Source: Streptomyces canus (GTDB taxonomy: Bacteria; Actinomycetota; Actinomycetes; Streptomycetales; Streptomycetaceae). From it: a stretch of DNA of 64,000 nt. The translations under genes and the position numbers were made by a program. The notes under the pieces are model-generated. The model searched no databases, was not told where the DNA came from, and saw only the letters and a program-made list of their open reading frames with translations. The stretch lies in the NCBI RefSeq assembly GCF_041435015.1, contig NZ_CP107989.1, positions 9,920,001 to 9,984,000 of the forward strand, written 5' to 3'. Of this stretch, positions 3,653 to 61,615 are shown piece by piece. The number at the start of each line of letters is the position of its first letter. Position 1 is the stretch's first letter.

Positions 3653-3672
3653 ACGGGGACGGTTGGCCCCTA
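3653..3672 (+). promoter_or_regulatory. DosR/DevR-type box (candidate)
   Basis: The core GGGAC-N4-GGCCC lies 77 bp upstream of the response-regulator start at 3750. It matches the geometry of the mycobacterial DosR box (GGGAC-N4-GKCCC in a 20-bp palindrome). A better palindromic copy is at 10646-10665, at nearly the same distance from its gene. Recognition by a DosR/OsdR-like protein is inferred; no such regulator is encoded in the window. Confidence 0.5.
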
Positions 3673-3749
3673 CCGTCCGTACGGGGCGCTGACGCACTCT
3701 GGGGGAGTCAGCGCAGTGGATCCCCTCACCCGGGAGGCGGGCGAACCGT

Positions 3750-4454
3750 ATGAACGCCCAGGCCAGGGGTGATGCCGAGGAGACGCGGGTGCTGGTCGTG
3801 GAGGACGATCGTGGCATCGCGGAGTCCCTGGTGCGCGGCCTTCGGCAGGCCGGATACGGAGTCGAAGGCGTCCGGACCGGGCGCGCAGCTCTGTCGGCGC
3901 CCACACCCGACGTCGTCCTGCTGGATCTGGGGCTGCCGGACATCGACGGCGTCGAGGTGTGCAGGCGGCTGCGTGCCCGGTCGGACGCCGCGATCATCGC
4001 GGTGACCGCTCGGGGCGAGGAGGCCGACCGGGTGGTGGCCCTGGACGAGGGCGCCGACGATTACCTGGTCAAGCCCTTCGGGCTGGCCGAGCTGCTGGCG
4101 CGGATGCGGGCCGTGCTGCGCCGCAGGCGTCCTGCCGAGCCGGAGATCCTGCGGCACGGGCCACTGGCGCTGGACCTGCGAACCCGGCAGGTCTCGGTCG
4201 AGGGACGTGCGGTGGCGCTGACGCCGAAGGAATTCGGCATCCTGGAGTGCCTGGCCGCGGACCCGGGCCGCGCGGTGACCCGGCAGCAGATCCTGGAACG
4301 GGCGTGGGACGCCCACTGGTACGGGCCGACGAAGGTGCTGGACGTGCACGTGGCCGCGCTGCGCCGCAAGCTCGGCGTGCCGGGGCTGATCGAGACGGTC
4401 TACGGGCAGGGCTTCCGGCTCGGGACGGTCCAGGAGCCGCAGGAGCAGCCGTGA
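3750..4454 (+). CDS. OmpR/PhoB-family response regulator
   Basis: 234 residues. The receiver domain (13-123) has acidic pocket Glu18-Asp19-Asp20, phospho-acceptor Asp59 in VVLLDLGLPDIDG, Thr86 and Lys108 in LVKPF. The C-terminal winged helix (about 133-228) ends with VLDVHVAALRRKLG and VYGQGFRL, typical of the OmpR type. It is the first gene of a tightly overlapping operon and shares a GTGA overlap with its kinase. The downstream genes are redox proteins, so the system probably controls its own electron-transfer operon. It is not a NarL-type regulator and therefore not itself the DosR orthologue, although a DosR-like box lies upstream. Confidence 0.95.
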   Translation: MNAQARGDAEETRVLVVEDDRGIAESLVRGLRQAGYGVEGVRTGRAALSAPTPDVVLLDLGLPDIDGVEVCRRLRARSDAAIIAVTARGEEADRVVALDEGADDYLVKPFGLAELLARMRAVLRRRRPAEPEILRHGPLALDLRTRQVSVEGRAVALTPKEFGILECLAADPGRAVTRQQILERAWDAHWYGPTKVLDVHVAALRRKLGVPGLIETVYGQGFRLGTVQEPQEQP

Positions 4455-5809
4455 CGCGCCGGATCACCTGGACGCTCCTGGTCCTCACCTCCGTGCTGTT
4501 GGTGCTGGCAGTGGTACCGCTGGCGGTGTCGTTGACGGCGCGCGAGCGCGTCGCCTACCGCGACAGCCAGCGGGCTGCCACACGTGTGATCGCCGCGGCG
4601 GCCGAGGAGCATCTCTCCGACCACAAGCCGCCGACCGCCATGCGCCGGGAACTGGAGGCCGCAGCGCGGGCGGGGGACTGCGCCGCCGTGTACGACACCT
4701 CGGGGCGCGTGCTGGCCAGTACGTCCTGTACGGCTGCCCAGGGTGAGGAGGCGGAGGAACTGGTGAAGGACGTGCTGGCCGGGCACGAGCCGGAGCCACC
4801 GGAGAACGAGGGACGGCTTGTGGCCGCGGAACCGGCCGGAGAGGTGCGCCGGCCCGCTGGAGCCGTCGTCCTGGCCCGCTCCGCCGACCCGCTGGACGCC
4901 CGTATCGCGGCTATCTGGGGCTGGTCCGCCGCGATCGGTGTCGCCGGGCTGGCCGCGTCCGCGCTGCTGTCCGTGCGCCTGGCCCGCTGGGTCAGCCGTC
5001 CATTGTCGACGCTGGACGTCAGCGCCCGGCGACTGGGTGAGGGGGCCCTCGACGAGCGGGCCGACGTCGGGGCGGGTCCACCGGAGGTGCGTCGGCTGGC
5101 TGCCACCTTCAACACCATGGCGGCTCGTATGGAGGCACTGGTCCACGGCCATCGGGCGGTGATCGCGGATGTGTCCCACCAGCTGCGCACCCCGTTGGCC
5201 GCACTGCGGCTGCGGCTCGACGTCCTGGCCGCCGACGCCGGAGGTGACACCGCTGCGGAGTTCGCCGCCGCGCAGGAGGAGATCGCACGGTTGTCCCGGC
5301 TGGTCGACGGGCTGCTGGCGGTCGCGCGTGCCGAGCAGGCGGCACCGCGTCCGACCGCGGTGCGGATCGACGAGGTGGTGGCCGAGCGGGCGGCCGCCTG
5401 GTCGCCCGTCGCCGAGGAACGCGACGTCCGGCTGACCGTAGTTTCCGAAGGGCCGGCCCTGACCGTCGCGCTGGGCGCGGGGCATCTGGAGCAGATCCTC
5501 GACAACCTGATCGCCAACGCCGTGGATGCTGTGCCCGAAGGCGGAAGCATCACCCTCGACCGTGGCACGGTGGGGGACGCGGTCCGGGTGTTCGTGCGGG
5601 ACGACGGTCCCGGGATGACGGAGGAGGCGAGGGCGGTCGCCTTCCGCCGGTTCGGTAACCCCCAGGCCCGGGGCGCGGGCCTGGGGCTGGCCATCGTGCA
5701 CCGGCTGGTCACCGTCAACGGCGGTACGGCACGGCTGGAGGACACGCCCGGTGGCGGGCTGACCGTCGTACTGGATCTGCCCCTGTGGCCCGAGCGGGGT
5801 GCGGCGTAG
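4451..5809 (+). CDS. Membrane sensor histidine kinase
   Basis: 452 residues from a GTG that overlaps the regulator's stop (GTGA). Transmembrane segments lie near residues 7-29 and 154-178, enclosing an extracytoplasmic sensor region of about 120 residues with two cysteines (from GDCAAVYD and STSCTAA), which might form a disulfide. A HAMP linker follows, then the H-box VSHQLRTPL with phospho-acceptor His243, N-box NLIANAVDA, G1 DDGPGM and G2 GAGLGLAI. All ATPase motifs are intact. Its partner is the upstream regulator. The signal is unknown. The Cys pair and downstream redox genes make a redox or flavin signal plausible, but that is inference. Confidence 0.94.
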   Translation: MTRRITWTLLVLTSVLLVLAVVPLAVSLTARERVAYRDSQRAATRVIAAAAEEHLSDHKPPTAMRRELEAAARAGDCAAVYDTSGRVLASTSCTAAQGEEAEELVKDVLAGHEPEPPENEGRLVAAEPAGEVRRPAGAVVLARSADPLDARIAAIWGWSAAIGVAGLAASALLSVRLARWVSRPLSTLDVSARRLGEGALDERADVGAGPPEVRRLAATFNTMAARMEALVHGHRAVIADVSHQLRTPLAALRLRLDVLAADAGGDTAAEFAAAQEEIARLSRLVDGLLAVARAEQAAPRPTAVRIDEVVAERAAAWSPVAEERDVRLTVVSEGPALTVALGAGHLEQILDNLIANAVDAVPEGGSITLDRGTVGDAVRVFVRDDGPGMTEEARAVAFRRFGNPQARGAGLGLAIVHRLVTVNGGTARLEDTPGGGLTVVLDLPLWPERGAA

Positions 5810-5917
5810 AGATCTTTACCGGTTCTGAAGGAGACGTGAGCGAGTTCCTGGGTGCCGTGAGCACAGCCTGGATGTGCACGCAGCCGATCCGGGCCGCCGA
5901 TCTCCAGGAGCGCTGCC

Positions 5918-6310
5918 ATGGCCCCCTCGCCCGACGACTCCCCGCCGACACCCGCCCCTGCTTTTTCCTCGCACGCACGTGACCGCGGCCTGCGCCGCAG
6001 CCGCCGCACCACGTTGTGGATCGCGGTCACCGCTGCGGCCGGCGCGGCGGCTCTGGGCGGTGTGTACACGCATGTGCTGCCGGGCGGTTCGGCCGCCCCC
6101 GCGCCGGTGAACGCACCGGTCCACCATCCCGCTGCGTCTACCGGCGCGACTGTGGGGAAGGGGGGCGAGGAGCCGAACGGTCACCAGGATGGCGAGGATG
6201 ACAACGACGAGGAGGGCGCGGCTCCCGTCACGCAACCGGCTCCGCAGCCCCCGGCCCAGCCGCCCGCCGCGACCCAGCAGCAGCCGCAGACCACGACGGG
6301 GGCGTCATGA
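5918..6310 (+). CDS. Small membrane-anchored protein with Pro/Gln-rich tail
   Basis: 130 residues: a short Pro-rich N-terminus, a basic stretch (RRSRRTT, 28-32), one transmembrane helix (about 33-52), then an acidic, Pro/Gln-rich extracytoplasmic tail without cysteines. AGGAG at 5907-5911 supports this ATG. It overlaps the ApbE gene by 4 bp. In many actinobacterial operons this position holds an FMN-binding-domain protein flavinylated by ApbE. Here the domain is absent, but the tail carries TGAT (75-78), which resembles the core of the ApbE target motif Dxx(S/T)GAT, with Ala in place of the usual Asp. A role as an anchor or minimal flavin carrier is speculative. Confidence 0.75.
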   Translation: MAPSPDDSPPTPAPAFSSHARDRGLRRSRRTTLWIAVTAAAGAAALGGVYTHVLPGGSAAPAPVNAPVHHPAASTGATVGKGGEEPNGHQDGEDDNDEEGAAPVTQPAPQPPAQPPAATQQQPQTTTGAS

Positions 6311-7296
6311 GCACGCACATCCCGGCCCTCTCTCCCTCTCAGGTCGTCTTCCCGGCCCTCGGCACGACGGCCGCCCTGCTGGTCACGGACCCGGCCGCCC
6401 TGCCCGCCGCGGAAGCGGTGCTGCGCGCCGAGCTGGCTGCCGTCGACCGCACCTGCAGCCGCTTCCGGCCCGACTCCGAGCTCACACGTGTGAATGTGAG
6501 CGCAGGTGTCACGACGAAGGTCAGCGCATACTTCGCCGAGGCCCTGCAGGCCGCCCTGCGTGCCGCCCGCCTCACCGGCGGCGCCGTGGATCCGACCGTG
6601 GGCAGCGCGGTGATCGCCCTCGGCTACGACCGCACTTTCGCCTCCCTCTCGCCCGAGGACGCCCGCCCCGTGCCCGTGGCCCGACCGGCGTCCGGCTGGC
6701 GGCGGATCGCTTTCGACCCGGACACCCGCCACGTGTGTCTGCCCCCGGGCGCCCGCCTCGACCTGGGCGCCACCGCCAAGGCCCTGGCCGCTGACCATGC
6801 AGCCCGGCAGATCGCCGCGGTGACCGGTTGCGGAGTTCTGGTCAGTCTCGGCGGCGACCTGGCGACCGCCGGACCGGCGCCCGAGGGCGGCTGGCGGATC
6901 GCCCTCGCCGACGACCACGCCCGGCCCGCCCCGGAAGGCGGTCCCGCCGTGGCGGTGACCAGTGGGGCGCTGGCGACCTCGGGCATCCGGGTGCGCACGT
7001 GGCGGCGCGGCGGGCGGGTCCTGCATCACATCGTCGACCCGCTCACCGGCGAACCCGCCGTACCCGTGTGGCGCACGGTCACCGTCGCGGCCGCCACCTG
7101 CGTCGACGCCAATGCCTTCAGCACGGCGGCGATCGTGCTCGGTGACCGGGCTCTGGACCGGCTGCACGCCACCGCCCTGCCCGCCCGGCTGACCGGCCTC
7201 GACGGCACCGTCGTTCGCGTGGGCGGCTGGCCGCCCGACGGCCACGCTCCCGCCGCTGCGGGCTCCCGGACCGCCGCCCCCGGAGGCCCGCGATGA
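6307..7296 (+). CDS. apbE: FAD:protein FMN transferase (ApbE family)
   Basis: 329 residues. ApbE enzymes use FAD and Mg2+ to attach FMN covalently to a Thr or Ser of a target protein, usually on an extracytoplasmic electron carrier. Visible family blocks are VDRTCSRFRPDSEL, GGAVDPTVG, LDLGATAKALAAD, GVLVSLGGDLA, ATSG, HHIVDPLTG and CVDANAFSTAA (metal site). No signal peptide is evident, so it acts in the cytoplasm or its export is not visible. It sits between the membrane anchor (4-bp overlap) and the haem-protein gene (4-bp overlap). Its substrate is not obvious because no FMN-binding domain is encoded nearby; candidates are its two membrane neighbours. Confidence 0.93.
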   Translation: MSTHIPALSPSQVVFPALGTTAALLVTDPAALPAAEAVLRAELAAVDRTCSRFRPDSELTRVNVSAGVTTKVSAYFAEALQAALRAARLTGGAVDPTVGSAVIALGYDRTFASLSPEDARPVPVARPASGWRRIAFDPDTRHVCLPPGARLDLGATAKALAADHAARQIAAVTGCGVLVSLGGDLATAGPAPEGGWRIALADDHARPAPEGGPAVAVTSGALATSGIRVRTWRRGGRVLHHIVDPLTGEPAVPVWRTVTVAAATCVDANAFSTAAIVLGDRALDRLHATALPARLTGLDGTVVRVGGWPPDGHAPAAAGSRTAAPGGPR

Positions 7297-7979
7297 CGAC
7301 ACTGGCCCTGACCGGCAGCCCCCTGTGGTACGCGAGCCGCGCCGGTGGCACCCTCGCCCTGATCCTGCTCACCATTACCGTGGTGCTCGGCATCGCCTCC
7401 GGCGGACGCACCGCGCCGCGGCGGATCGGCAGGTTCGAGGTGGGACTGCTGCACCGCAACCTGTCCCTGCTGACCCTGGTGTTCCTCGCTGTCCACGTGG
7501 TGACCGCGGTGCTCGATCCGTTCGTCCACCTGAGCTGGGCGGTGTCCGTGGTGCCGTTCTCGGCGTCCTACCGACCGCTCTGGCTCGGCCTCGGCACGGT
7601 CGCGCTTGACCTGCTGCTCGCGGTGCTGGTCACCAGCGGGCTACGGCGCCGGCTCGGGGTACGCCGTTGGAAGGCTGTGCATTGGTTGGCCTACGCCGCC
7701 TGGCCGGTCGCCATCTTCCACAGCGCCGGCACCGGTACCGACACCCGGCTTTCCCTCCAGCTGTGGCTGTATGCCGCCTGCCTGGTGTCGGTGGTCGGTG
7801 CCGTGTGGTGGCGACTGGCGAAGGCCGGTCCGGAGCGGGTCGTCGGACGCCTGGTCGCCGCCGTGGCCGCCATCGCCGTACCTGTGGCGCTGACCGCGTT
7901 CCTCGCTGCGGGGCCGCTCCAGCCGGGCTGGGCCCAGCATGCCGCCACGACGGCGATCCTGCACGGGGGCGGACGATGA
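7293..7979 (+). CDS. Ferric-reductase-like transmembrane protein
   Basis: 228 residues with about six predicted transmembrane helices. Helix-embedded histidines such as VHVVTAVLDPFVHL and VHWLAYAAWPVAIFH fit the bis-haem four-helix core of ferric reductase-like and MsrQ/YedZ-type proteins. Such proteins move electrons across the membrane through b haems. There is no C-terminal FAD/NAD(P) domain, so electrons must come from a separate protein; the next two genes encode plausible donors. Four-base ATGA overlaps on both sides make co-translation likely. Calling it cytochrome b-like is firm at fold level; the physiological acceptor is unknown. Confidence 0.85.
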   Translation: MTTLALTGSPLWYASRAGGTLALILLTITVVLGIASGGRTAPRRIGRFEVGLLHRNLSLLTLVFLAVHVVTAVLDPFVHLSWAVSVVPFSASYRPLWLGLGTVALDLLLAVLVTSGLRRRLGVRRWKAVHWLAYAAWPVAIFHSAGTGTDTRLSLQLWLYAACLVSVVGAVWWRLAKAGPERVVGRLVAAVAAIAVPVALTAFLAAGPLQPGWAQHAATTAILHGGGR

Positions 7980-9319
7980 ACTCCCCGACTGCCGTGTCCT
8001 CCGCGTCCCACGAACACACGGCTGAGCCGGACTCGTCCGCGGCCGCCCGACTGCTGGCCGGATGGCACGCCACCGGGCGACCGACCGACCTCACCGATCA
8101 CCTCCGGCGCCACGGGCAGCCTCCTGCCGCCACGGTTCTCGGCAGCCGGACGTCGATGCCGCTGGTGGAGGCTGTCGAGTCGGCCGGGCTCACCGGGCGC
8201 GGCGGCGCCGGGTTCCCCACCGCGCGCAAGCTGCGGGCCGTGGCGGAACGTGGCGGCCGGGCCGTGGTCGTCGTCAATGCCATGGAGAGCGAACCCGCCA
8301 GCCGCAAGGACCAGTTCCTGCTCGCCGTCGCACCCCACCTCGTCCTCGATGGTGCCGTCCTGGCCGCGACCGCGGTCGGCGCCGATACCGTCCACGTGTG
8401 CCTGCCACGCACCCGCAGCGCCCAGTACCGGCAGCTGAGCGAAGCCCTGGACGAACGACACCGCCACCGCCTCGACCGGGTGCGGCTGCGCCTGCACGCC
8501 CTTCCGCACGCCTACGTCTCCAGCGAGTCGACCGCGTTGGTGCGCTGGCTCAACGGCGGCCCGGCCCGGCCGCAGGGCAGCCCGCCACGCGCCCACGAAC
8601 GCGGCGTCGCCCGGCGCCCCACCCTCATCCACAACGCCGAGACCCTCGCCCACCTCGCTCTCATCGCCCGACACGGCCCCGACTGGTTCCGCCGCACGGG
8701 AACCCCGGACGAGCCCGGCACGACACTTGTGACCGTCTCCGGCGCCGTCACCACCCCGGGCGTCCAGGAGGTCGCGATCGGCACGCCGCTCGCCACGATC
8801 GTCGACCGTGCCGGAGGTCCCACGCAGCCTGTGAGGGCGGTCCTCCTCGGTGGCTTCGCCGGCACCTGGCTCCCGTCGGAACACCTGGACACCCCCCTCA
8901 CCCAGCGCGACCTGGCCCCGCTGGGCGCCGCCCCCGGGGCGGGCGTGCTCGTCTCCCTTGCCCACTCGGCCTGCGGGCTGAGCGAGACGGCGCGCATTCT
9001 CGCCTACCTCGCCGCCCACGGTGCCCGCCAGTGCGGACCGTGCCACTTCGGACTGCCCGCCGTCGCCGACGACTTCGCCATGCTGGCCGCCGGACGGAGC
9101 GACCCCGACCTGCTGCCCCGGCTGCACCGGAGGACCGGTCTGCTGCCGGGCCGGGGTGCCTGCCGCCATCCCGACGGTGCCGCCCGCCTCGCCGCCTCCG
9201 CCTTGAGCACCTTCGCCGACGACGTCGACCACCACCGCACCTACGGCCCCTGCCCCGCCGGCCACCGGTCGCCCCTCATCCCCGTACCGCCCGCCATACC
9301 CCCGGAGACCTGGCGATGA
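7976..9319 (+). CDS. NuoF/SLBB-type flavin and iron-sulfur oxidoreductase subunit
   Basis: 447 residues. The Rossmann-like N-terminal half has GRGGAGFPT (74-82) and NAMESEP..RKD (from 101), the NADH/FMN-binding motifs of the NuoF/HoxF family. An SLBB-like segment follows (VTVSGAVTTPGV...GTPLATIVDRAGG). The C-terminal part carries cysteines in SACGLSE, ARQCGPC and GACRHP; the classic ESCGxCxPC cluster motif is altered (ARQCGPC), so the 4Fe-4S site may be modified. At about 450 residues it matches NuoF length. Overlaps of 4 bp on both sides place it between the membrane haem protein and a ferredoxin. I infer that it oxidises NAD(P)H or the ferredoxin and feeds the membrane partner. Confidence 0.85.
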   Translation: MNSPTAVSSASHEHTAEPDSSAAARLLAGWHATGRPTDLTDHLRRHGQPPAATVLGSRTSMPLVEAVESAGLTGRGGAGFPTARKLRAVAERGGRAVVVVNAMESEPASRKDQFLLAVAPHLVLDGAVLAATAVGADTVHVCLPRTRSAQYRQLSEALDERHRHRLDRVRLRLHALPHAYVSSESTALVRWLNGGPARPQGSPPRAHERGVARRPTLIHNAETLAHLALIARHGPDWFRRTGTPDEPGTTLVTVSGAVTTPGVQEVAIGTPLATIVDRAGGPTQPVRAVLLGGFAGTWLPSEHLDTPLTQRDLAPLGAAPGAGVLVSLAHSACGLSETARILAYLAAHGARQCGPCHFGLPAVADDFAMLAAGRSDPDLLPRLHRRTGLLPGRGACRHPDGAARLAASALSTFADDVDHHRTYGPCPAGHRSPLIPVPPAIPPETWR

Positions 9320-9528
9320 CCCCCACCAAGACCCTGCGTGTCGACCGCATCGCCTGCACCGGGCAGGGCCTGTGCGGCGAACTGCTCCCCGAGCTGATCG
9401 GCCTCGACGAATGGGGCTACCCCGTTATCAAGGTCCGAGCCGTCCCCGACCATCTGCGCACCCACACGCGCCGGGCCGTCGCCGCCTGCCCCCGCCTTGC
9501 CCTCCACGCCGACGACGGTCCCGCGTGA
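9316..9528 (+). CDS. 3Fe-4S-type ferredoxin
   Basis: 70 residues with three ligand cysteines: Cys14 and Cys20 in CTGQGLC, and Cys58 in ACP. This C-x5-C...CP spacing is that of the small single-cluster ferredoxins often paired with actinobacterial P450s. No P450 is nearby; the gene overlaps the NuoF-like gene by 4 bp (ATGA) and ends the operon. It is the likely soluble electron carrier for the pathway. No aromatic residues beyond those expected for the fold, and no insertion, are seen. Confidence 0.9.
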   Translation: MTPTKTLRVDRIACTGQGLCGELLPELIGLDEWGYPVIKVRAVPDHLRTHTRRAVAACPRLALHADDGPA

Positions 9529-9654
9529 CGCGCACAGTGTCCCGTGACACACGCCGGGTCAGTCATCCTCTCCGTCGCCGGCCAAGGCCGTCTTGGAGAA
9601 GCTGTCGTGCCACGCGTCCTTCGCCCCCGAATCGCCGAGGGGCGAGGATGCGCC

Positions 9655-9755
9655 CATGTCTTCGATGCACGCTCGGCGGTCTTCGGCAGCTGCCGCGCCA
9701 GGTCGTTCATGGCCCGGCCCGCGGCCAGTTCGTCGCCGATTCCGGACGAGCCTTC
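9655..9755 (-). pseudogene. DUF1876 (dsRBD-like, Rv1738 type) remnant
   Basis: The minus strand reads GSSGIGDELAAGRAMNDLAR, then QLPKTAERASKTWAH. This matches, from memory, the C-terminal helix of DUF1876 proteins (IGEELAAARALNDLA pattern). Only about 35 codons survive, with no start, and the frame runs straight on from the nicotinate phosphoribosyltransferase remnant. Rv1738, a DUF1876 protein, belongs to the mycobacterial DosR regulon, in line with the surrounding genes. The assignment rests on a short stretch. Confidence 0.45.
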
Positions 9756-9761
9756 CGTGAA

Positions 9762-9972
9762 CGTCGGACCCAGCAGAGGCTCAAGATCGTGGTGAGGCCG
9801 GTGCAGGGCTGCGGCGGTAGTCGAGTGCCGACTCGAGCCCCGCCGCCACCAGGAATCCCCGCTCCGGAGGAAGGTCGCGGGCGAAGAGGCTGAAGGTGGC
9901 TGGGCCGATCATCCCCTCGTGAAGGGAGGACATGGCGATCGTGACTTCGTACAGATCCCCTGTGTCCGTCAC
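9762..9972 (-). pseudogene. Nicotinate phosphoribosyltransferase, N-terminal remnant
   Basis: The frame reads TGDLYEVTIAMSSLHEGM, GPATFSLFARDLPPERG and FLVAAGLESALDY, the N-terminus of NAPRTase (PncB), an enzyme of NAD salvage. After LESALDY a frame change and deletion leave only EPLLGPTFTE of the following region. The remaining 350 or so residues, including the active-site His, are missing. The original start was probably the GTG at 9972, which overlaps the Rv1733c gene's TGA by 4 bp, so the two genes were once translationally coupled. PncB2 is a DosR-regulon member in Mycobacterium tuberculosis. Confidence 0.7.
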
Positions 9973-10571
9973 GGACGGAAGCGTGCGGACCACCGGGGTT
10001 CCACCAGCCCCCATTCGGCGTCCCATTGCGCGTACCGTCTCCGGTTCAGGACCAGGCGCATGCCCGCCCCGAGCGCGTAGGATCCGGCGCCCACGCCGAA
10101 CGCCGCCATACCGCCCACCAGCCAGCCGCTGGTCGTCGCGTTGAGCGTGGTCGTCGGCGGCTCGGTGACTTGTCCCTTACGGGTCACCCACACACGTACG
10201 GTGGAGCCCTTGGGAGTTCCCGGCTTCACCAGAACCGCGCCCGTCCGCACGACACCGTTGGGGTCGGTCCAGCGAACCCGCGCCGGTCGCTTCACCCAAT
10301 CGCCACCCCCGGCGGTCGACGTCAGCCGGGCGGTGACCTGGTGCCGTTCCGCTGCCTGGGTCCGCACCGTGTGCATCGACGCTTCGTACGCTGTCAGTCC
10401 CGCGCTGACGGCGGCTGCCGGCAGCCCGAGGACGAGAACGACCATCAGAACGCGGCGCATCCAGCACTCGAACGTGTCGGACGCACGCCTCAGGGAGTTC
10501 CGGCCCTTGGCCGCGGCATCGCCGCGCCTCGGCGGTGGACCGGGTGTGTATGGCGAACCTTGTGTGCTCAT
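9969..10571 (-). CDS. Rv1733c-family membrane protein
   Basis: 200 residues from an ATG preceded by GGAAGGCGGGTC. A Pro-rich N-terminus is followed by a transmembrane helix (about 40-62), an extracytoplasmic domain of about 85 residues with RVRWTDPNGVVRTGAVLV and GSTVRVWVTRKGQV, a second helix (about 147-170) and a basic tail (RRRYAQWDAEWGLVEPRW). This two-helix layout with the W-x-D-x-x-G strand is that of Rv1733c-type proteins, which are dormancy-induced in mycobacteria; their biochemical function is unknown. A strong DosR-like palindrome lies 74 bp upstream. A longer reading frame extends to 10796, but lacks family similarity and crosses that palindrome. Confidence 0.88.
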   Translation of the reverse strand: MSTQGSPYTPGPPPRRGDAAAKGRNSLRRASDTFECWMRRVLMVVLVLGLPAAAVSAGLTAYEASMHTVRTQAAERHQVTARLTSTAGGGDWVKRPARVRWTDPNGVVRTGAVLVKPGTPKGSTVRVWVTRKGQVTEPPTTTLNATTSGWLVGGMAAFGVGAGSYALGAGMRLVLNRRRYAQWDAEWGLVEPRWSARFRP

Positions 10572-10645
10572 GACCCGCCTTCCAACAATTCGCCGGCCGT
10601 CCCCCACCGACTGCTCCCACCGTCGAACGGCAGCGGGGTCGGGGC

Positions 10646-10665
10646 ACAGGGACGAAGGTCCCTGT
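10646..10665 (-). promoter_or_regulatory. DosR/DevR-type box, perfect 20-bp palindrome
   Basis: ACAGGGACGAAGGTCCCTGT has two perfect 8-bp arms around a 4-bp spacer and contains GGGAC-N4-GTCCC, the core of the mycobacterial DosR box. It lies 74 bp upstream of the Rv1733c-family start, and that gene type is DosR-controlled in mycobacteria. A second copy is at 3653-3672. I infer control by an OsdR/DosR-like NarL-type regulator encoded elsewhere. Confidence 0.65.
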
Positions 10666-10714
10666 CGGGCCAGGCTTTTCGGTCCACCGGTAGCCGAAGG
10701 GGCCCAGCCCGTGG

Positions 10715-10950
10715 GCAGCGGTGGCGTCCTCGTGCAGAACCTCGCTCGACAGCCGGACCGTGGGATTTCTATCCGTGGCGGGCTCCGAGGCGGCACTGAT
10801 CACCTCGGAGGGCTCGCGATCACCGGCAGCCGCGTGCACGAGGCGGAGCGACATACTGTGCCGGGCCGGCTCGGCGGCGCCCCAGTTCACCGCCACCGCC
10901 TCCAGGCTCGATTCGGATCCGTCGATGCCGATCACCACGGGAATCGCCAC
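10715..10950 (-). pseudogene. Universal stress protein, N-terminal remnant
   Basis: A GTG at 10950, with GAGGAG a few bases upstream, opens a frame reading IPVVIGIDGSESSLEAV, NWGAAEPARHSMSLRLVHAA and PTVRLSSEVLHEDATAAH. This is the first 75 or so residues of a Usp domain. The sequence then changes to GLGPFGYRWTEKPG, which has no Usp character; the ATP-loop and the whole second domain are gone. The ribosome-binding site survives, so a short fusion peptide could still be made. It shares its upstream region with the intact Usp gene at 11169. Confidence 0.65.
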
Positions 10951-11168
10951 CGCACCCGTCTCCTCTCGTGGCGGGTGCCAGGTGCCAGGTGCCTGGACTT
11001 CCTCCCCTCTACGGCTCCGCATGCGCCGGGGAGGATATTGGGGTACTCCTCGTAGGAGAGAAGCACCGCGCTCGGCATGTCGGCGACGTCCGGAGCATGC
11101 ACGCCATCGGACTCGTTCACCGTCACCCACCGTCGTATCCAGTTTCGTACGAGACGGAGGCCGCCGCC

Positions 11169-12041
11169 ATGCAGCCAGTGATCACCGTGGGCCTCGACGG
11201 CTCACCCGAGAGCCTCGCCGCCGCCCGTTGGGCCGCCGACGAGGCGGACAGGCGCAAACTCACGCTGCGCCTGCTGCACGCGTGGCCGCTGCTGGTGCCG
11301 GAACCGGCCCGCGTCCCTTCGGACGTCGATCAGAACTACTGGGCGAAGCGCTTCGTCCACACCGCGCGCGCGGAACTGGAATCCAGCCACCCGGGTCTGA
11401 CCATCATCGGGAGCCTGGTGGCCGACGACGCCCGGAAGGCTTTGCTCCAGGCGGCGTCGGACTCCGAGCTGATCGTGCTCGGCTCACGGGGGCTGGATTC
11501 CGTCGGAAGCTACTTCCTGGGTGACGTCAGCATGCCGGTCGTTGCCCGGACACAGCGGCCGGTGGTCCTGGTCCGCACGGGATACAGGACAGCGCAGCCG
11601 ACGCAGCCGACGCCGGCGAACCGTGTGGTCGTGGCACTGAAACTCCACGGATCCAGCGACGAACTGCTCGACTTCGCCTTCCACACCGCCGCGGTCAGAG
11701 GGGTTGCGCTCCTGGCCGTACACGGCCGAAGCGTGCCGCTGCACGCGCGCGTGCCCTGGGGAGTGGACCACGCCGTGACCGAAGAGATGACAGGGGACGC
11801 GCAGCAGGAGCTGAGCAAGGCCCTGCACCGCTGGCGCGAGAAGTACCCGCAGGTGGACGCGGCCCACGCCATCCGGCTCGAGACGCCCGCGAAGGCCGTC
11901 GTTCATGCTGGCGAAGGCGCCGCGCTGCTCGTCGTCGGCCGGCGCACACACCGGCACGACATGGCACCCCACCTGGGCCACGTGACCCACGCCGCCATCC
12001 ATCACGGGCGCTGCCCCGTCGCCGTCGTCCCCCATGGCTGA
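11169..12041 (+). CDS. Two-domain universal stress protein
   Basis: 290 residues with tandem UspA domains. Domain 1 begins PVITVGLDGSPESLAAARWA and has LIVLGSRGLDSVGSYFLGDV followed by RPVVLV. Domain 2 has VVVALKLHGSSDELLDFAF and ends LLVVGRRTHRHD...HAAIHHGRCPVAVVPHG. The ATP-binding GxxG loops are looser in this copy (GLDSVGSY), so nucleotide binding is less certain. GGAGG at 11155-11159 supports this ATG over in-frame codons further upstream. It is divergent from a Usp remnant, and a very weak DosR-like sequence lies near 11080. Confidence 0.9.
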   Translation: MQPVITVGLDGSPESLAAARWAADEADRRKLTLRLLHAWPLLVPEPARVPSDVDQNYWAKRFVHTARAELESSHPGLTIIGSLVADDARKALLQAASDSELIVLGSRGLDSVGSYFLGDVSMPVVARTQRPVVLVRTGYRTAQPTQPTPANRVVVALKLHGSSDELLDFAFHTAAVRGVALLAVHGRSVPLHARVPWGVDHAVTEEMTGDAQQELSKALHRWREKYPQVDAAHAIRLETPAKAVVHAGEGAALLVVGRRTHRHDMAPHLGHVTHAAIHHGRCPVAVVPHG

Positions 12042-12146
12042 GCCCCGCGACGAACTGAACGACGCCCGGAAAGCCGACATGTAGCAGGCCCACCTTCACT
12101 GCGGCGGCCTGGCATACGACTTGTTGTCTCGCCTTGGCGACAGACG

Positions 12147-58042: not shown

Positions 58043-61000
58043 ATGAGCGTGTCCCGCCGTACCCTCCTGCTCGCCGGAGGAACCGCCGCCACCCTGCTGC
58101 CACTCGGAGGCATCCTCCCCGCAGCACAGGCCGCCGCCACCAGCGCCGCCGGAGCACCCCCGGTGCCCGCCCCGATTCCCGACCCCATCCCCGTTACCGG
58201 CGCCTGGACCCGCACCTCCGACGGCGGCCAGAAGGCGACCGCCGGCCGTCGCGGGCCCGCCCTCGCCCTGTCCGAGCAGCAACTCGCGGCCAAGGGCACG
58301 TACGCGGCCCGCGTCACGCCCCAATCCTCCTCCGCCGTAGGCGCGTTGGTGTTCCGGGCAGCCCTCGACGGCTCGACCGGATACGCGGTCGCCCTCGACC
58401 CCGCCCGCGCCCGCATACGGCTCTACGACCTGGCCGGCGGCGACACACTCGCCACCGCTCCGCTCCCGGGCGCGCAGGCCGGAAAGCCCTACGGCCTCGA
58501 AGTGGCGGTCGACGGACCCGAGCTGACGGTGCATGTCGACGGCAAGCGGGTCCTCCACACCGAGGACCACCGCCACGACACCGGCTCGGTGGGCCTGCTC
58601 GCCCAGGGCGGCAAGGTCACCTTCGGCCCGCCCGCCCTCTCCTCGGTCACCACCAACCTCACCGGCTGGACCACGAGCGGCGGCACCTGGACGGCGAGTC
58701 CGCTGGGCTGGCGCGCGGCCCCGACCCAGGGAGCCACCGCCCGCGCCATCACCACGACCAAGGCGTACGACACCGCGCTCCAGGCCGACCTGCTCCTGCA
58801 CGACGCCTCCGCCATCGCCTCACTGCTGGTGCGCACCGACGCCACGGCCACGCACGGCTACGGCGTCCAAGTCGACGCGGACCAGGGCAGGCTGAGGCTC
58901 TACCGCATCGACGGCAACGTCACCCTCGGCACCTACGCGACCACCATCAAGGCCGACACGGTCTACCGTCTGCGCGTCGAAGCCGAGGGCACCGAACTGC
59001 GCGTGCACTGGCAGACCAACTTCCTCTCTCCCGACGGCTACAGCCCCGTCATCACCGCCCAGGACTCCACCCACACGAAGGGCCGACTCGCCGTCACGGC
59101 TTCGGCCGGCGAGGTGTCCTTCGAGAACATCGCCGCGGCCGACCTCGCCACCGGCCTCCAGGGCTGGACGGCCCGCTCCGGCACCTGGACCCCGGACCTG
59201 CGCGGCATCCGCGCCGAGAACGGCCTGCGGACGGCCCCCTTCACCGACGGCGACCTGGTGGCGAGGGCCGACATCACACCCGGCGACCGCTCCTCCTCGG
59301 CCGGCCTCGTCCTGCGCGCGTCCGCGAACGGCTCCGGCGGCTACGAGGCCCGCCTGGAAGCCGGCCGCAACGCCGTCGTCCTGCTGGACCGCTCCTCCGG
59401 CGCCCGCCTGGCCTCCGCTGCCGGCCCGGTCCGGCGCATCGCGTCCGGCGGCACCTATCGCGTCGAGGCCCGCGCGACGGGCAGGACGATCGAGGTGTAC
59501 GTGGACGGCATACGGGCGCTCAAGACCCGTGTGTCCCGCACCAAGGGAGCCGCCTTCGGCACCGCGGCCGCGCACGGGGCGTCGTACTTCCAGAATGTCG
59601 AAGTCCACAGCACCGCCGACTACTTCACCGAGCCGTACCGCCCCACCTACCACTACTCCCAGCTCCGCGGCTCCACCAGCGACCCCAACGGTCTGGTCCA
59701 CTACGACGGCGAGTACCACCTTTTCCACCAGGACGAGGGCCGCTGGGCGCACGCGGTGAGCACCGACCTCGTCCACTGGCGGGCCCTGCCGATCGCCCTG
59801 CCCTGGAACGCCTACGGCAACTGCTGGTCCGGCTCGGCGATCGTCGACGCCGACGACACCTCCGGCCTCTTCGACGGCGGCTCGGGCCTGATCGCGTACT
59901 ACACGAGCTACCACCCGGACAAGCCGGGCGGAAATGCCGGCGTGCGCATCGCCTACAGCAGGGACAAGGGCCGCTCGTGGCAGTGGCACGGTGGCTCGAC
60001 CCCGGCGGTGCAGAACCCGGGCGGCCCCGACGCCGGCTGGACCTTCCGCGACCCGAAGGTCATCCGCGACGAGGCCCACGACCAGTGGCTCATGGTCGTC
60101 TCCGGTGGCGATCACATCCGCTTCTTCACCTCCACCGACCTCCTCACCTGGACCCAGGTCAGCTCCTTCGGCTACGGCGACTGGGCCACACCCGGCGTCT
60201 GGGAGTGCCCCGACTTCTTCCCGCTCCCCGTAGACGGCGACAGGGACAAGGTGAAGTGGGTCCTCACCCTGAGCACCGGTGCCGTACGCGCCACGAACGG
60301 CTCGGCCGCCCAGTACTTCACGGGTGAGTGGAACGGCACCGGTTTCACTCCCGATCAGAAGGCCGGCACGGTCCTGCGCGCCGACTCCGGCCGTGACTTC
60401 TACGCCGCCATGTCCTTCTCCGGCCTGCCCGACGGCCGCCGCGTCTGGCTCGGCTGGATGAGCAACTGGGACTACCCGTTCAGCGCCCCGACCGGAGCCT
60501 GGAACGGCCAGCTGAGCACCCCCCGCGAACTGACCCTCACGGACACCGCCGACGGCGTACGCCTGGCGCAGCGCCCGGTCCCGGAGCTGGTCGCACTGCG
60601 CACGTCCACCACCACCCGCAAGGACCTCGCCGTCGGCCCCACCTCCGCGAACCCGCTCGCGGGAGTCCGGGGCATCGCCTACGAGATCGAGGCCGAGATC
60701 ATCCTCGGCACCGCCACGGAGATCGGCTTCCGGCTCCGGGCCGGCGGCGACCAGCACACGACCGTCGGATACGACGCCGAGGCCCGGGAACTGTTCGTGG
60801 ACCGCTCGGCATCGGGCCCGAGCGACTTCACGCAGTACTTCACGGGCCGTACGACCGCGCCGATGACGACGACCGACGGCCGCGCGACCCTGCGCGTGTA
60901 CGTCGACTCGTCCTCGGTCGAGGCATTCGGCGCGGCCGGACAGGCCACCGTGACCAGCCTGATCTTCCCCCGCCCGGACGCCGACGGCATGGCTTTCTAC

Positions 61001-61615
61001 GCCAAGGGTGGCACCGCGCACATCGAGTCGCTCAAGGTGCACAGGCTCGACAGCACCTTGCGCCTGGTGGATCGGGTGAAGCCGCTGGTGTCCGGCCCGA
61101 GCGGCGGTGAATTCCGCTCGGATCTCGGCACGTTGACGATCACCCCTGCCGGCCGTTGGTCGACGGACAGCGCGGGCCGCACCGGAAGCTTCGACAAGGA
61201 CTCCAACGCGATCTCGGCCCGCACGGCGACGGACTTGGACCTCACCACTCTGGTCCGGCTCGGCGGCCCCGCTCCGGACACGGGCGGCGCCCTCTCCCTC
61301 CTCTGGCGTGCCTCCTCCGACGGCGCCGACGCCTACTGCCTCAACATCGACCCCGACCTACGCGTGATCCGCCTGGTCGCCAAGGCCAACGGCTACTTCG
61401 ACGACGGCGCCGCCCTCGCCCGCGTCCCGGCCCTGGTCCGCCGCGGCACGACCTACGCCGTCCGCATCCTCACCGAGGGCGACCGCATCCAGGTGTTCCT
61501 CAACGGCAAGCGGATCATCGACGTGACGGACACGACGTACGCCGATGGCCACATCGCCCTGAACGTGTTCGGCGGGAGGGCGGCGTACCAGGACACCTAC
61601 GCGCGGGAGTTGTGA
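58043..61615 (+). CDS. Exported multi-domain GH32 levanase/inulinase
   Basis: 1190 residues with a signal peptide (VSRRTLLLAGGTAATLLPLG, Tat-like RR motif, ending AQAA). Three repeated concanavalin-like modules (about 50-210, 210-375 and 375-525, each with a G-W-T..G.W pattern) precede the GH32 propeller. Its nucleophile is Asp547 in STSDPNGLVHYDGEYHLFH, the RDP motif holds Asp670 and the acid/base is Glu721 in WECPDFF. A GH32 C-terminal sandwich (about 840-1000) and a fourth concanavalin-like module (about 1010-1190) complete it. The usual WxNDPNG reads STSDPNG, which keeps the Asp. AGGAG precedes the ATG. It should cut polymer outside the cell. Confidence 0.92.
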   Translation: MSVSRRTLLLAGGTAATLLPLGGILPAAQAAATSAAGAPPVPAPIPDPIPVTGAWTRTSDGGQKATAGRRGPALALSEQQLAAKGTYAARVTPQSSSAVGALVFRAALDGSTGYAVALDPARARIRLYDLAGGDTLATAPLPGAQAGKPYGLEVAVDGPELTVHVDGKRVLHTEDHRHDTGSVGLLAQGGKVTFGPPALSSVTTNLTGWTTSGGTWTASPLGWRAAPTQGATARAITTTKAYDTALQADLLLHDASAIASLLVRTDATATHGYGVQVDADQGRLRLYRIDGNVTLGTYATTIKADTVYRLRVEAEGTELRVHWQTNFLSPDGYSPVITAQDSTHTKGRLAVTASAGEVSFENIAAADLATGLQGWTARSGTWTPDLRGIRAENGLRTAPFTDGDLVARADITPGDRSSSAGLVLRASANGSGGYEARLEAGRNAVVLLDRSSGARLASAAGPVRRIASGGTYRVEARATGRTIEVYVDGIRALKTRVSRTKGAAFGTAAAHGASYFQNVEVHSTADYFTEPYRPTYHYSQLRGSTSDPNGLVHYDGEYHLFHQDEGRWAHAVSTDLVHWRALPIALPWNAYGNCWSGSAIVDADDTSGLFDGGSGLIAYYTSYHPDKPGGNAGVRIAYSRDKGRSWQWHGGSTPAVQNPGGPDAGWTFRDPKVIRDEAHDQWLMVVSGGDHIRFFTSTDLLTWTQVSSFGYGDWATPGVWECPDFFPLPVDGDRDKVKWVLTLSTGAVRATNGSAAQYFTGEWNGTGFTPDQKAGTVLRADSGRDFYAAMSFSGLPDGRRVWLGWMSNWDYPFSAPTGAWNGQLSTPRELTLTDTADGVRLAQRPVPELVALRTSTTTRKDLAVGPTSANPLAGVRGIAYEIEAEIILGTATEIGFRLRAGGDQHTTVGYDAEARELFVDRSASGPSDFTQYFTGRTTAPMTTTDGRATLRVYVDSSSVEAFGAAGQATVTSLIFPRPDADGMAFYAKGGTAHIESLKVHRLDSTLRLVDRVKPLVSGPSGGEFRSDLGTLTITPAGRWSTDSAGRTGSFDKDSNAISARTATDLDLTTLVRLGGPAPDTGGALSLLWRASSDGADAYCLNIDPDLRVIRLVAKANGYFDDGAALARVPALVRRGTTYAVRILTEGDRIQVFLNGKRIIDVTDTTYADGHIALNVFGGRAAYQDTYAREL

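Follow-up and report, generated by a model that had tools for sequence, protein, structure and literature searches.

Rv1733c is a DosR target in mycobacteria, and in Mycobacterium tuberculosis the DosR regulon also includes universal stress protein (Usp) genes. We analyzed two DosR-like boxes in a 64,000-nucleotide stretch of Streptomyces canus DNA (G000:C1:9920001-9984000, on a contig of a 10.68 Mb genome; hereafter "the window"): box 1 precedes the response-regulator gene at the head of a redox operon, and box 2 precedes an Rv1733c gene. Among the closest described systems is the regulon of OsdR in Streptomyces coelicolor, with the consensus AGGGCCGATCGGCCCT (Urem et al. 2016, PMC5069765), which this genome resembles in the consensus itself, in the positions of sites before genes, and in a region rich in Usp genes that also contains osdR, nitroreductase, and pyruvate phosphate dikinase genes (the dikinase was recognized here by eye only). 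It differs in that Table 1 of that paper contains no Rv1733c or ApbE gene and its main text does not contain "rv1733". On the redox side, Meheust et al. (2021; PMC8238504) describe MsrQ-like systems, in which a PF01794 cytochrome b accompanies ApbE, as widespread in Actinobacteria, with 31 MsrQ-like clusters that include a NuoF-like protein. Our literature search, outside which lay supplements and subscription papers, found no paper naming both OsdR and ApbE, and the papers with both DevR and "flavinylat" concern, by title and the start of the abstract, complex II or mitochondria and ageing. To our knowledge, no ApbE operon is among the targets of DosR.

From the sequence we predict that both boxes are binding sites of the genome's own OsdR, a response regulator of the DosR/DevR type, acting as an activator, and we hold this to be probable. 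The prediction follows from the match of the boxes to a published matrix, the presence of position-conserved sites before orthologues of both genes, the occurrence of two OsdR/DevR-type regulators in the genome, and the clustering of strong sites in Usp-rich islands. These results support the earlier note, made on the same DNA, which had proposed that the operon belongs to an OsdR-like dormancy regulon.

Both boxes lie where that note had placed them, with GGGACGGTTGGCCC at 3656-3669 within 3653-3672 and the 20-mer ACAGGGACGAAGGTCCCTGT at 10646-10665, at distances of 77 bp from the ATG at 3750 and 74 bp from the ATG at 10571 (minus strand), respectively. The 20-mer had been called a perfect palindrome; because its central GAAG is not self-complementary, this needs correcting to two perfectly complementary 8-bp arms flanking an unpaired center, with 16 of the 20 positions pairing. 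We scored sites with a matrix built from all 26 site sequences in the OsdR table of PMC5069765, whose training range is 11.8-18.5 bits. Box 2 is the highest-scoring site of the window, and box 1, close to the lower limit of that range, is outscored by box 2 and by sites at 59160 (12.9 bits) and 61686 (13.7 bits), both of which are probably due to chance. The former lies inside a large gene call (58163-61615), and the latter just past the end of that call. The pattern GGGAC-N4-GKCCC has seven strand-matches at five places in the window (shuffle mean 1.6; seven reached in 1 of 100 shuffles). A candidate third box at 5598-5611 was ruled out as histidine-kinase coding sequence (codons for VRDDGPGM; 8.6 bits).

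A search of the genome collection with the NuoF-like protein of the operon returned 39 loci, nearly all from Streptomyces among the closest matches. We compared box 1 across 22 loci, namely the window and the 21 of the 39 with a placeable start of an orthologous response-regulator gene; the other 18 were left out, the response regulator being missing or not orthologous or the locus being partial or distant. A site of at least 12.0 bits (rounded) occurs in 17/22 loci, with its far edge 70-112 bp before the orthologous gene. The count of sites strictly above 12 bits is 15/22, the window and the locus of S. neyagawaensis both scoring 11.99 bits with the identical, weaker 16-mer GGGGACGGTTGGCCCC. 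What the loci still share in their otherwise diverged upstream DNA is the box, the ribosome-binding site, and a downstream element resembling GCAGNCTGG. The background of sites of at least 12 bits across these loci is 53 in 410 kb (0.039 per 300 bp); counted by genes, 41/333 windows upstream of other genes hold such a site. Part of these 41 are likely to be real, for example the boxes of a P-type ATPase gene (PF00122, E 1e-30) that is present in 13 loci. In 12 of the 13 this gene lies behind the ferredoxin gene and is preceded by a box (e.g., L043:11678-13735); in L053 it has none. No P-type ATPase gene was seen behind the window's operon, and the window's own genome was not searched for such genes. 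Weak on score alone, box 1 convinces only through its conservation.

The same position directly before a regulator gene could mean that box 1 serves the operon's own OmpR-type response regulator in autoregulation rather than OsdR, a reading to which the high conservation of this protein (86-94% identity, among the highest in the operon) lends some weight. We consider it quite unlikely: OmpR-type regulators usually bind direct repeats, sites of the same type precede Rv1733c, osdR-type, Usp, and P-type ATPase genes, and box 1 fits a matrix that was published independently for OsdR.

For box 2, a search for Rv1733c proteins over 150 genomes of the genus found a relative at the cut-off used in 136 of them. 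Thirteen of the 30 loci listed, the window's own included, encode a protein at least 50% identical to that of the window, and every one of these shows a site between -83 and -94 (12 with at least 12 bits; L101 with 11.5 bits). Among the other 17 listed loci, where start codons were extrapolated, a site of at least 12 bits was found only in L117. This conserved site suggests that one Rv1733c lineage is an OsdR-type target in Streptomyces. The window's own genome has nine Rv1733c matches, eight of them above cut-off, and boxes precede three of the nine (9753890, 9794343, and the window's copy), all located in Usp islands. The Rv1733c-Usp segment of the window has a diverged duplicate in which the box reads AGGGCCGAAAGTCCCT (plus strand). 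The Usp part of the duplicate is 98% identical and the Rv1733c part 84%, an unevenness that suggests either gene conversion or two duplication events. Apparently truncated Usp genes were also seen at 81-680 (by Pfam) and at about 10680-10975, minus strand (by eye).

The two promoters share a geometry that is better expressed by the spacing between box and -10-like element than by the matching ATG distances on which the earlier note had relied; the 74 and 77 bp are correct, and it is the shared spacing that matters more and replaces them. A hexamer of the form xANNNT lies 23 or 24 nt past the box in 16/17 box-1 promoters and in 11/13 Rv1733c promoters, and at 22 nt in the remaining two of the latter. 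If this hexamer is the -10 element, the center of the box falls near -44, a position that would fit a class II activator overlapping the -35 region; an activator overlapping -35 is expected to be centered about there.

Two OsdR/DevR-type response regulators are encoded in the genome, at 9744473-9745174 and 262240-262932; they share 75% identity across 212 aligned positions. Among solved proteins DevR is the nearest to each of them, which likens the system to the DosR/DevR regulon of Mycobacterium tuberculosis (252.8 and 269.3 bits; the next match, VraR, reaches 140 and 150.8), and the segment EKTVKN is common to DevR and both regulators. Strong sites precede the two regulator genes (18.5 and 20.2 bits). 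The near edge of the site before 9744473-9745174 lies at -81 by our own start call, and -81 is also the position given for the site of SCO0204 (PMC5069765), whose edge convention may differ from the one used here. The regulator gene at 262240-262932 belongs to a different Usp island, which lies close to the opposite end of the contig. A GAF-domain histidine kinase at 9761298-9763058 has an 18.0-bit site upstream and, judging by its domains and neighborhood, would be of the osdK type.

Strong sites cluster with Usp, osdR-type, and kinase genes. We placed Usp islands by Pfam Usp matches, with borders drawn by hand after the sites were known, and sampled 864 kb of the window's own genome. The Usp islands, 145 kb in all, hold 20 sites of at least 13 bits (box 2 included) and the other 719 kb hold 5, making such sites about 20-fold denser in the islands; with the window's own island set aside, 19 such sites remain in 130 kb of islands. 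Outside the islands the score level of box 2 (15.85 bits) occurs once in 719 kb, and that of box 1 is represented by 13 sites of at least 12 bits, or about 1.8 per 100 kb. Sites of at least 12 bits within 300 bp upstream were found for 2/351 core genes, 15/164 other arm or island genes, and 6/27 Usp/Rv1733c genes; two Rv1733c genes, that of the window and the one at 258791, escaped the custom gene caller and are not among the 27.

Several observations weigh against regulation of both boxes by OsdR. Bare patterns show no genome-wide excess, with 26 sites for GGGAC-N4-GTCCC versus 21 for the reversed control and 56 for RGGGMC-N4-GKCCCY versus 75, so that the motif enrichment for which the earlier note had proposed a genome-wide scan is absent at this level and appears only with matrix scores and Usp islands; the signal of the boxes resides in their location and score and not in the frequency of the bare pattern. 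This lack of excess, together with Markov controls that yield 0-4 sites of at least 12 bits per 64 kb and the 41/333 other upstream windows with a site, is what one would expect if the boxes were chance palindromes in GC-rich DNA, an explanation that we regard as very improbable given the conservation of position before both genes (17/22 and 13/13), the density of sites in the Usp islands, and the single site of at least 15.8 bits in all 20 Markov runs.

The version of box 1 in the window is, furthermore, among the weakest (11.99 bits versus 16.6-20.2 bits in ten relatives), and no box precedes the response regulator in 5/22 loci (L037, L047, L049, L053 from Nocardia, and L056), including L037, where the regulator is 94% identical and the best upstream score is 4.5 bits. 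Both points would also suit a box 1 that is real in the relatives and here a decayed, non-functional former site, with box 2 functional. Such decay seems unlikely, as neither the half-sites GGGAC/GGCCC nor the -10-like element is disrupted and the identical 16-mer is present in S. neyagawaensis. Because the loci are related, the 17 with a site are not 17 independent events. Also on the negative side, six of the nine own Rv1733c copies have no box, five of these lying outside the islands and one, at 258791, inside the left island, where the highest score over 600 bp is 4.5 bits; 21 of the 27 tagged Usp/Rv1733c genes lack a box of 12 bits; 18 other boxes of the own genome show no fixed -10-like offset; and the sites in the OsdR table are mostly predicted, with some tested by electrophoretic mobility shift assay (PMC5069765). 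Finally, the S. coelicolor regulon lists nitrate reductase (PMC5069765), whereas this genome has no narG above cut-off and a single weak match of 46.6 bits, so that the link to nitrate-reductase genes raised in the earlier note does not hold for this genome.

Table. Features of the window discussed in the text (positions count from the first letter of the window)
Feature	Position	Strand	Remarks
Box 1, OsdR-type site	3655..3670	+	GGGGACGGTTGGCCCC; 11.99 bits (12.0); precedes response-regulator gene
-10-like hexamer CACTCT	3695..3700	+	24 nt after box 1; putative promoter element
OmpR-family response regulator	3750..4454	+	PF00072 + PF00486; 86-94% identical in 21 relatives
Membrane sensor histidine kinase	4451..5809	+	HAMP, HisKA, HATPase_c
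Small single-anchor membrane protein; acidic, Pro-rich linker; TTTGAS at the C terminus	5918..6310	+	no Pfam family; candidate ApbE substrate
ApbE (FAD:protein FMN transferase)	6307..7296	+	PF02424, 180.8 bits
MsrQ/ferric-reductase-like membrane cytochrome b	7293..7979	+	PF01794; H54, H68, H130, H143 conserved in 16 aligned
NuoF-like protein	7976..9319	+	Complex1_51K, SLBB, NADH_4Fe-4S
Small single-cluster ferredoxin	9316..9528	+	PF13459; C14, C20, C58 conserved in 14 aligned
Segment with diverged Rv1733c-Usp duplicate	9647..12045		copy at G000:C1 9792653-9796540; 84-98% identity, four aligned pieces
Rv1733c family protein	9969..10571	-	NF050032, 167.8 bits (cut-off 80)
-10-like hexamer GACGGT	10619..10624	-	23 nt after box 2; putative promoter element
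Box 2, OsdR-type site	10648..10663	-	AGGGACCTTCGTCCCT; 15.9 bits (15.85); precedes Rv1733c gene
Tandem-domain universal stress protein	11169..12041	+	

Box 1 had been described as preceding a flavin/heme/ferredoxin operon; it is the two-component system that comes directly after the box, with the redox genes behind it. Judged by its domains and gene order, the operon is a two-component system followed by an ApbE flavinylation system that is MsrQ-like and of the NuoF type, the PF01794 cytochrome b gene adjoining apbE. MsrQ-like clusters typically, although not by definition, have a gene for an FMN-binding domain (PMC8238504), and this operon has none; it adds to such clusters a TGAS-ending anchored protein, the two-component system, and the ferredoxin. 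The genome has three ApbE loci, and its only matches to the FMN_bind family (PF04205), at 2.54 and 8.24 Mb, lie next to the two that are outside the window. A scan of all operon proteins except the regulator and the kinase found no [S/T]GA[S/T] motif in the aligned ApbE (0/13), cytochrome (0/16), NuoF-like (0/18), and ferredoxin (0/14) proteins, and the C-terminal TGAS of the small anchored protein is, on these alignments, the sole ApbE-type motif found conserved in the operon.

TGAS forms the C terminus in 118 of the 120 homologues listed (125 found). According to a review (PMC12052999), the residue modified by ApbE is the final one of the motif, tags perform best when placed at a terminus, and some ApbEs are cytosolic; the review also calls the aspartate heading DxxSGAT strictly conserved, and this aspartate is absent from the tail proteins, which have Q or H there in 34/34 aligned sequences. 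Nothing resembling a TGAS tail is described in the accessible text of another study of flavinylated proteins (PMC11334425). Mean charge over 119 tail proteins is +5.5 before the anchor and -7.4 after it, a pattern that suggests an outside location of the tail, in contrast to ApbE, whose N termini in the window and its relatives show no signal peptide by eye. The last codons of the tail protein overlap the start of apbE (TCATGA in 20/20, GGG in 17/20, and GCG in 20/20 near loci), and because they also form the apbE translation start, the case for TTTGAS as pure protein-level conservation is weakened; part of the conservation may be at the DNA level. Seven of nine distant loci, however, retain [ST]G[AG]S (the exceptions are L060 and L069; L051 yielded no usable tail protein) and encode the S/T before GA/GG by ACG, TCC, AGC, TCG, or TCT, codons whose variety speaks for selection on the protein.

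In the mechanism that we propose, phosphorylated OsdR dimers would bind the DNA about 44 bp upstream of the transcription start, where they would overlap a -35 region of poor quality, and would bring in RNA polymerase in hypoxic or resting conditions. Box 2 would switch on Rv1733c, and box 1 would do so for the whole operon, from the OmpR-type two-component system through the tail protein, ApbE, cytochrome b, and the NuoF-like protein to ferredoxin. Electrons from NAD(P)H or ferredoxin could then cross the membrane to a covalent flavin, and the dormancy regulator would thereby control a dedicated electron-transfer line plus its own sensor. More tentatively, and with doubts that we consider to prevail for now, the dormancy regulator may drive a nested two-component system and an ApbE electron-export line in which the flavin sits on the last residue of a TTTGAS-COOH tail. 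The flavin-bearing tail would in that case be flexible and membrane-anchored and have no folded FMN-binding domain, and such a tethered flavin shuttle would serve hypoxic or resting mycelium.

If the regulation by OsdR is true, it provides both a promoter and a regulator amenable to testing, along with a candidate for a minimal ApbE substrate. The DosR/OsdR-type program of actinomycetes would then extend to a transmembrane flavin-based electron-transfer system, which suggests that resting hyphae may dispose of electrons without oxygen or nitrate.

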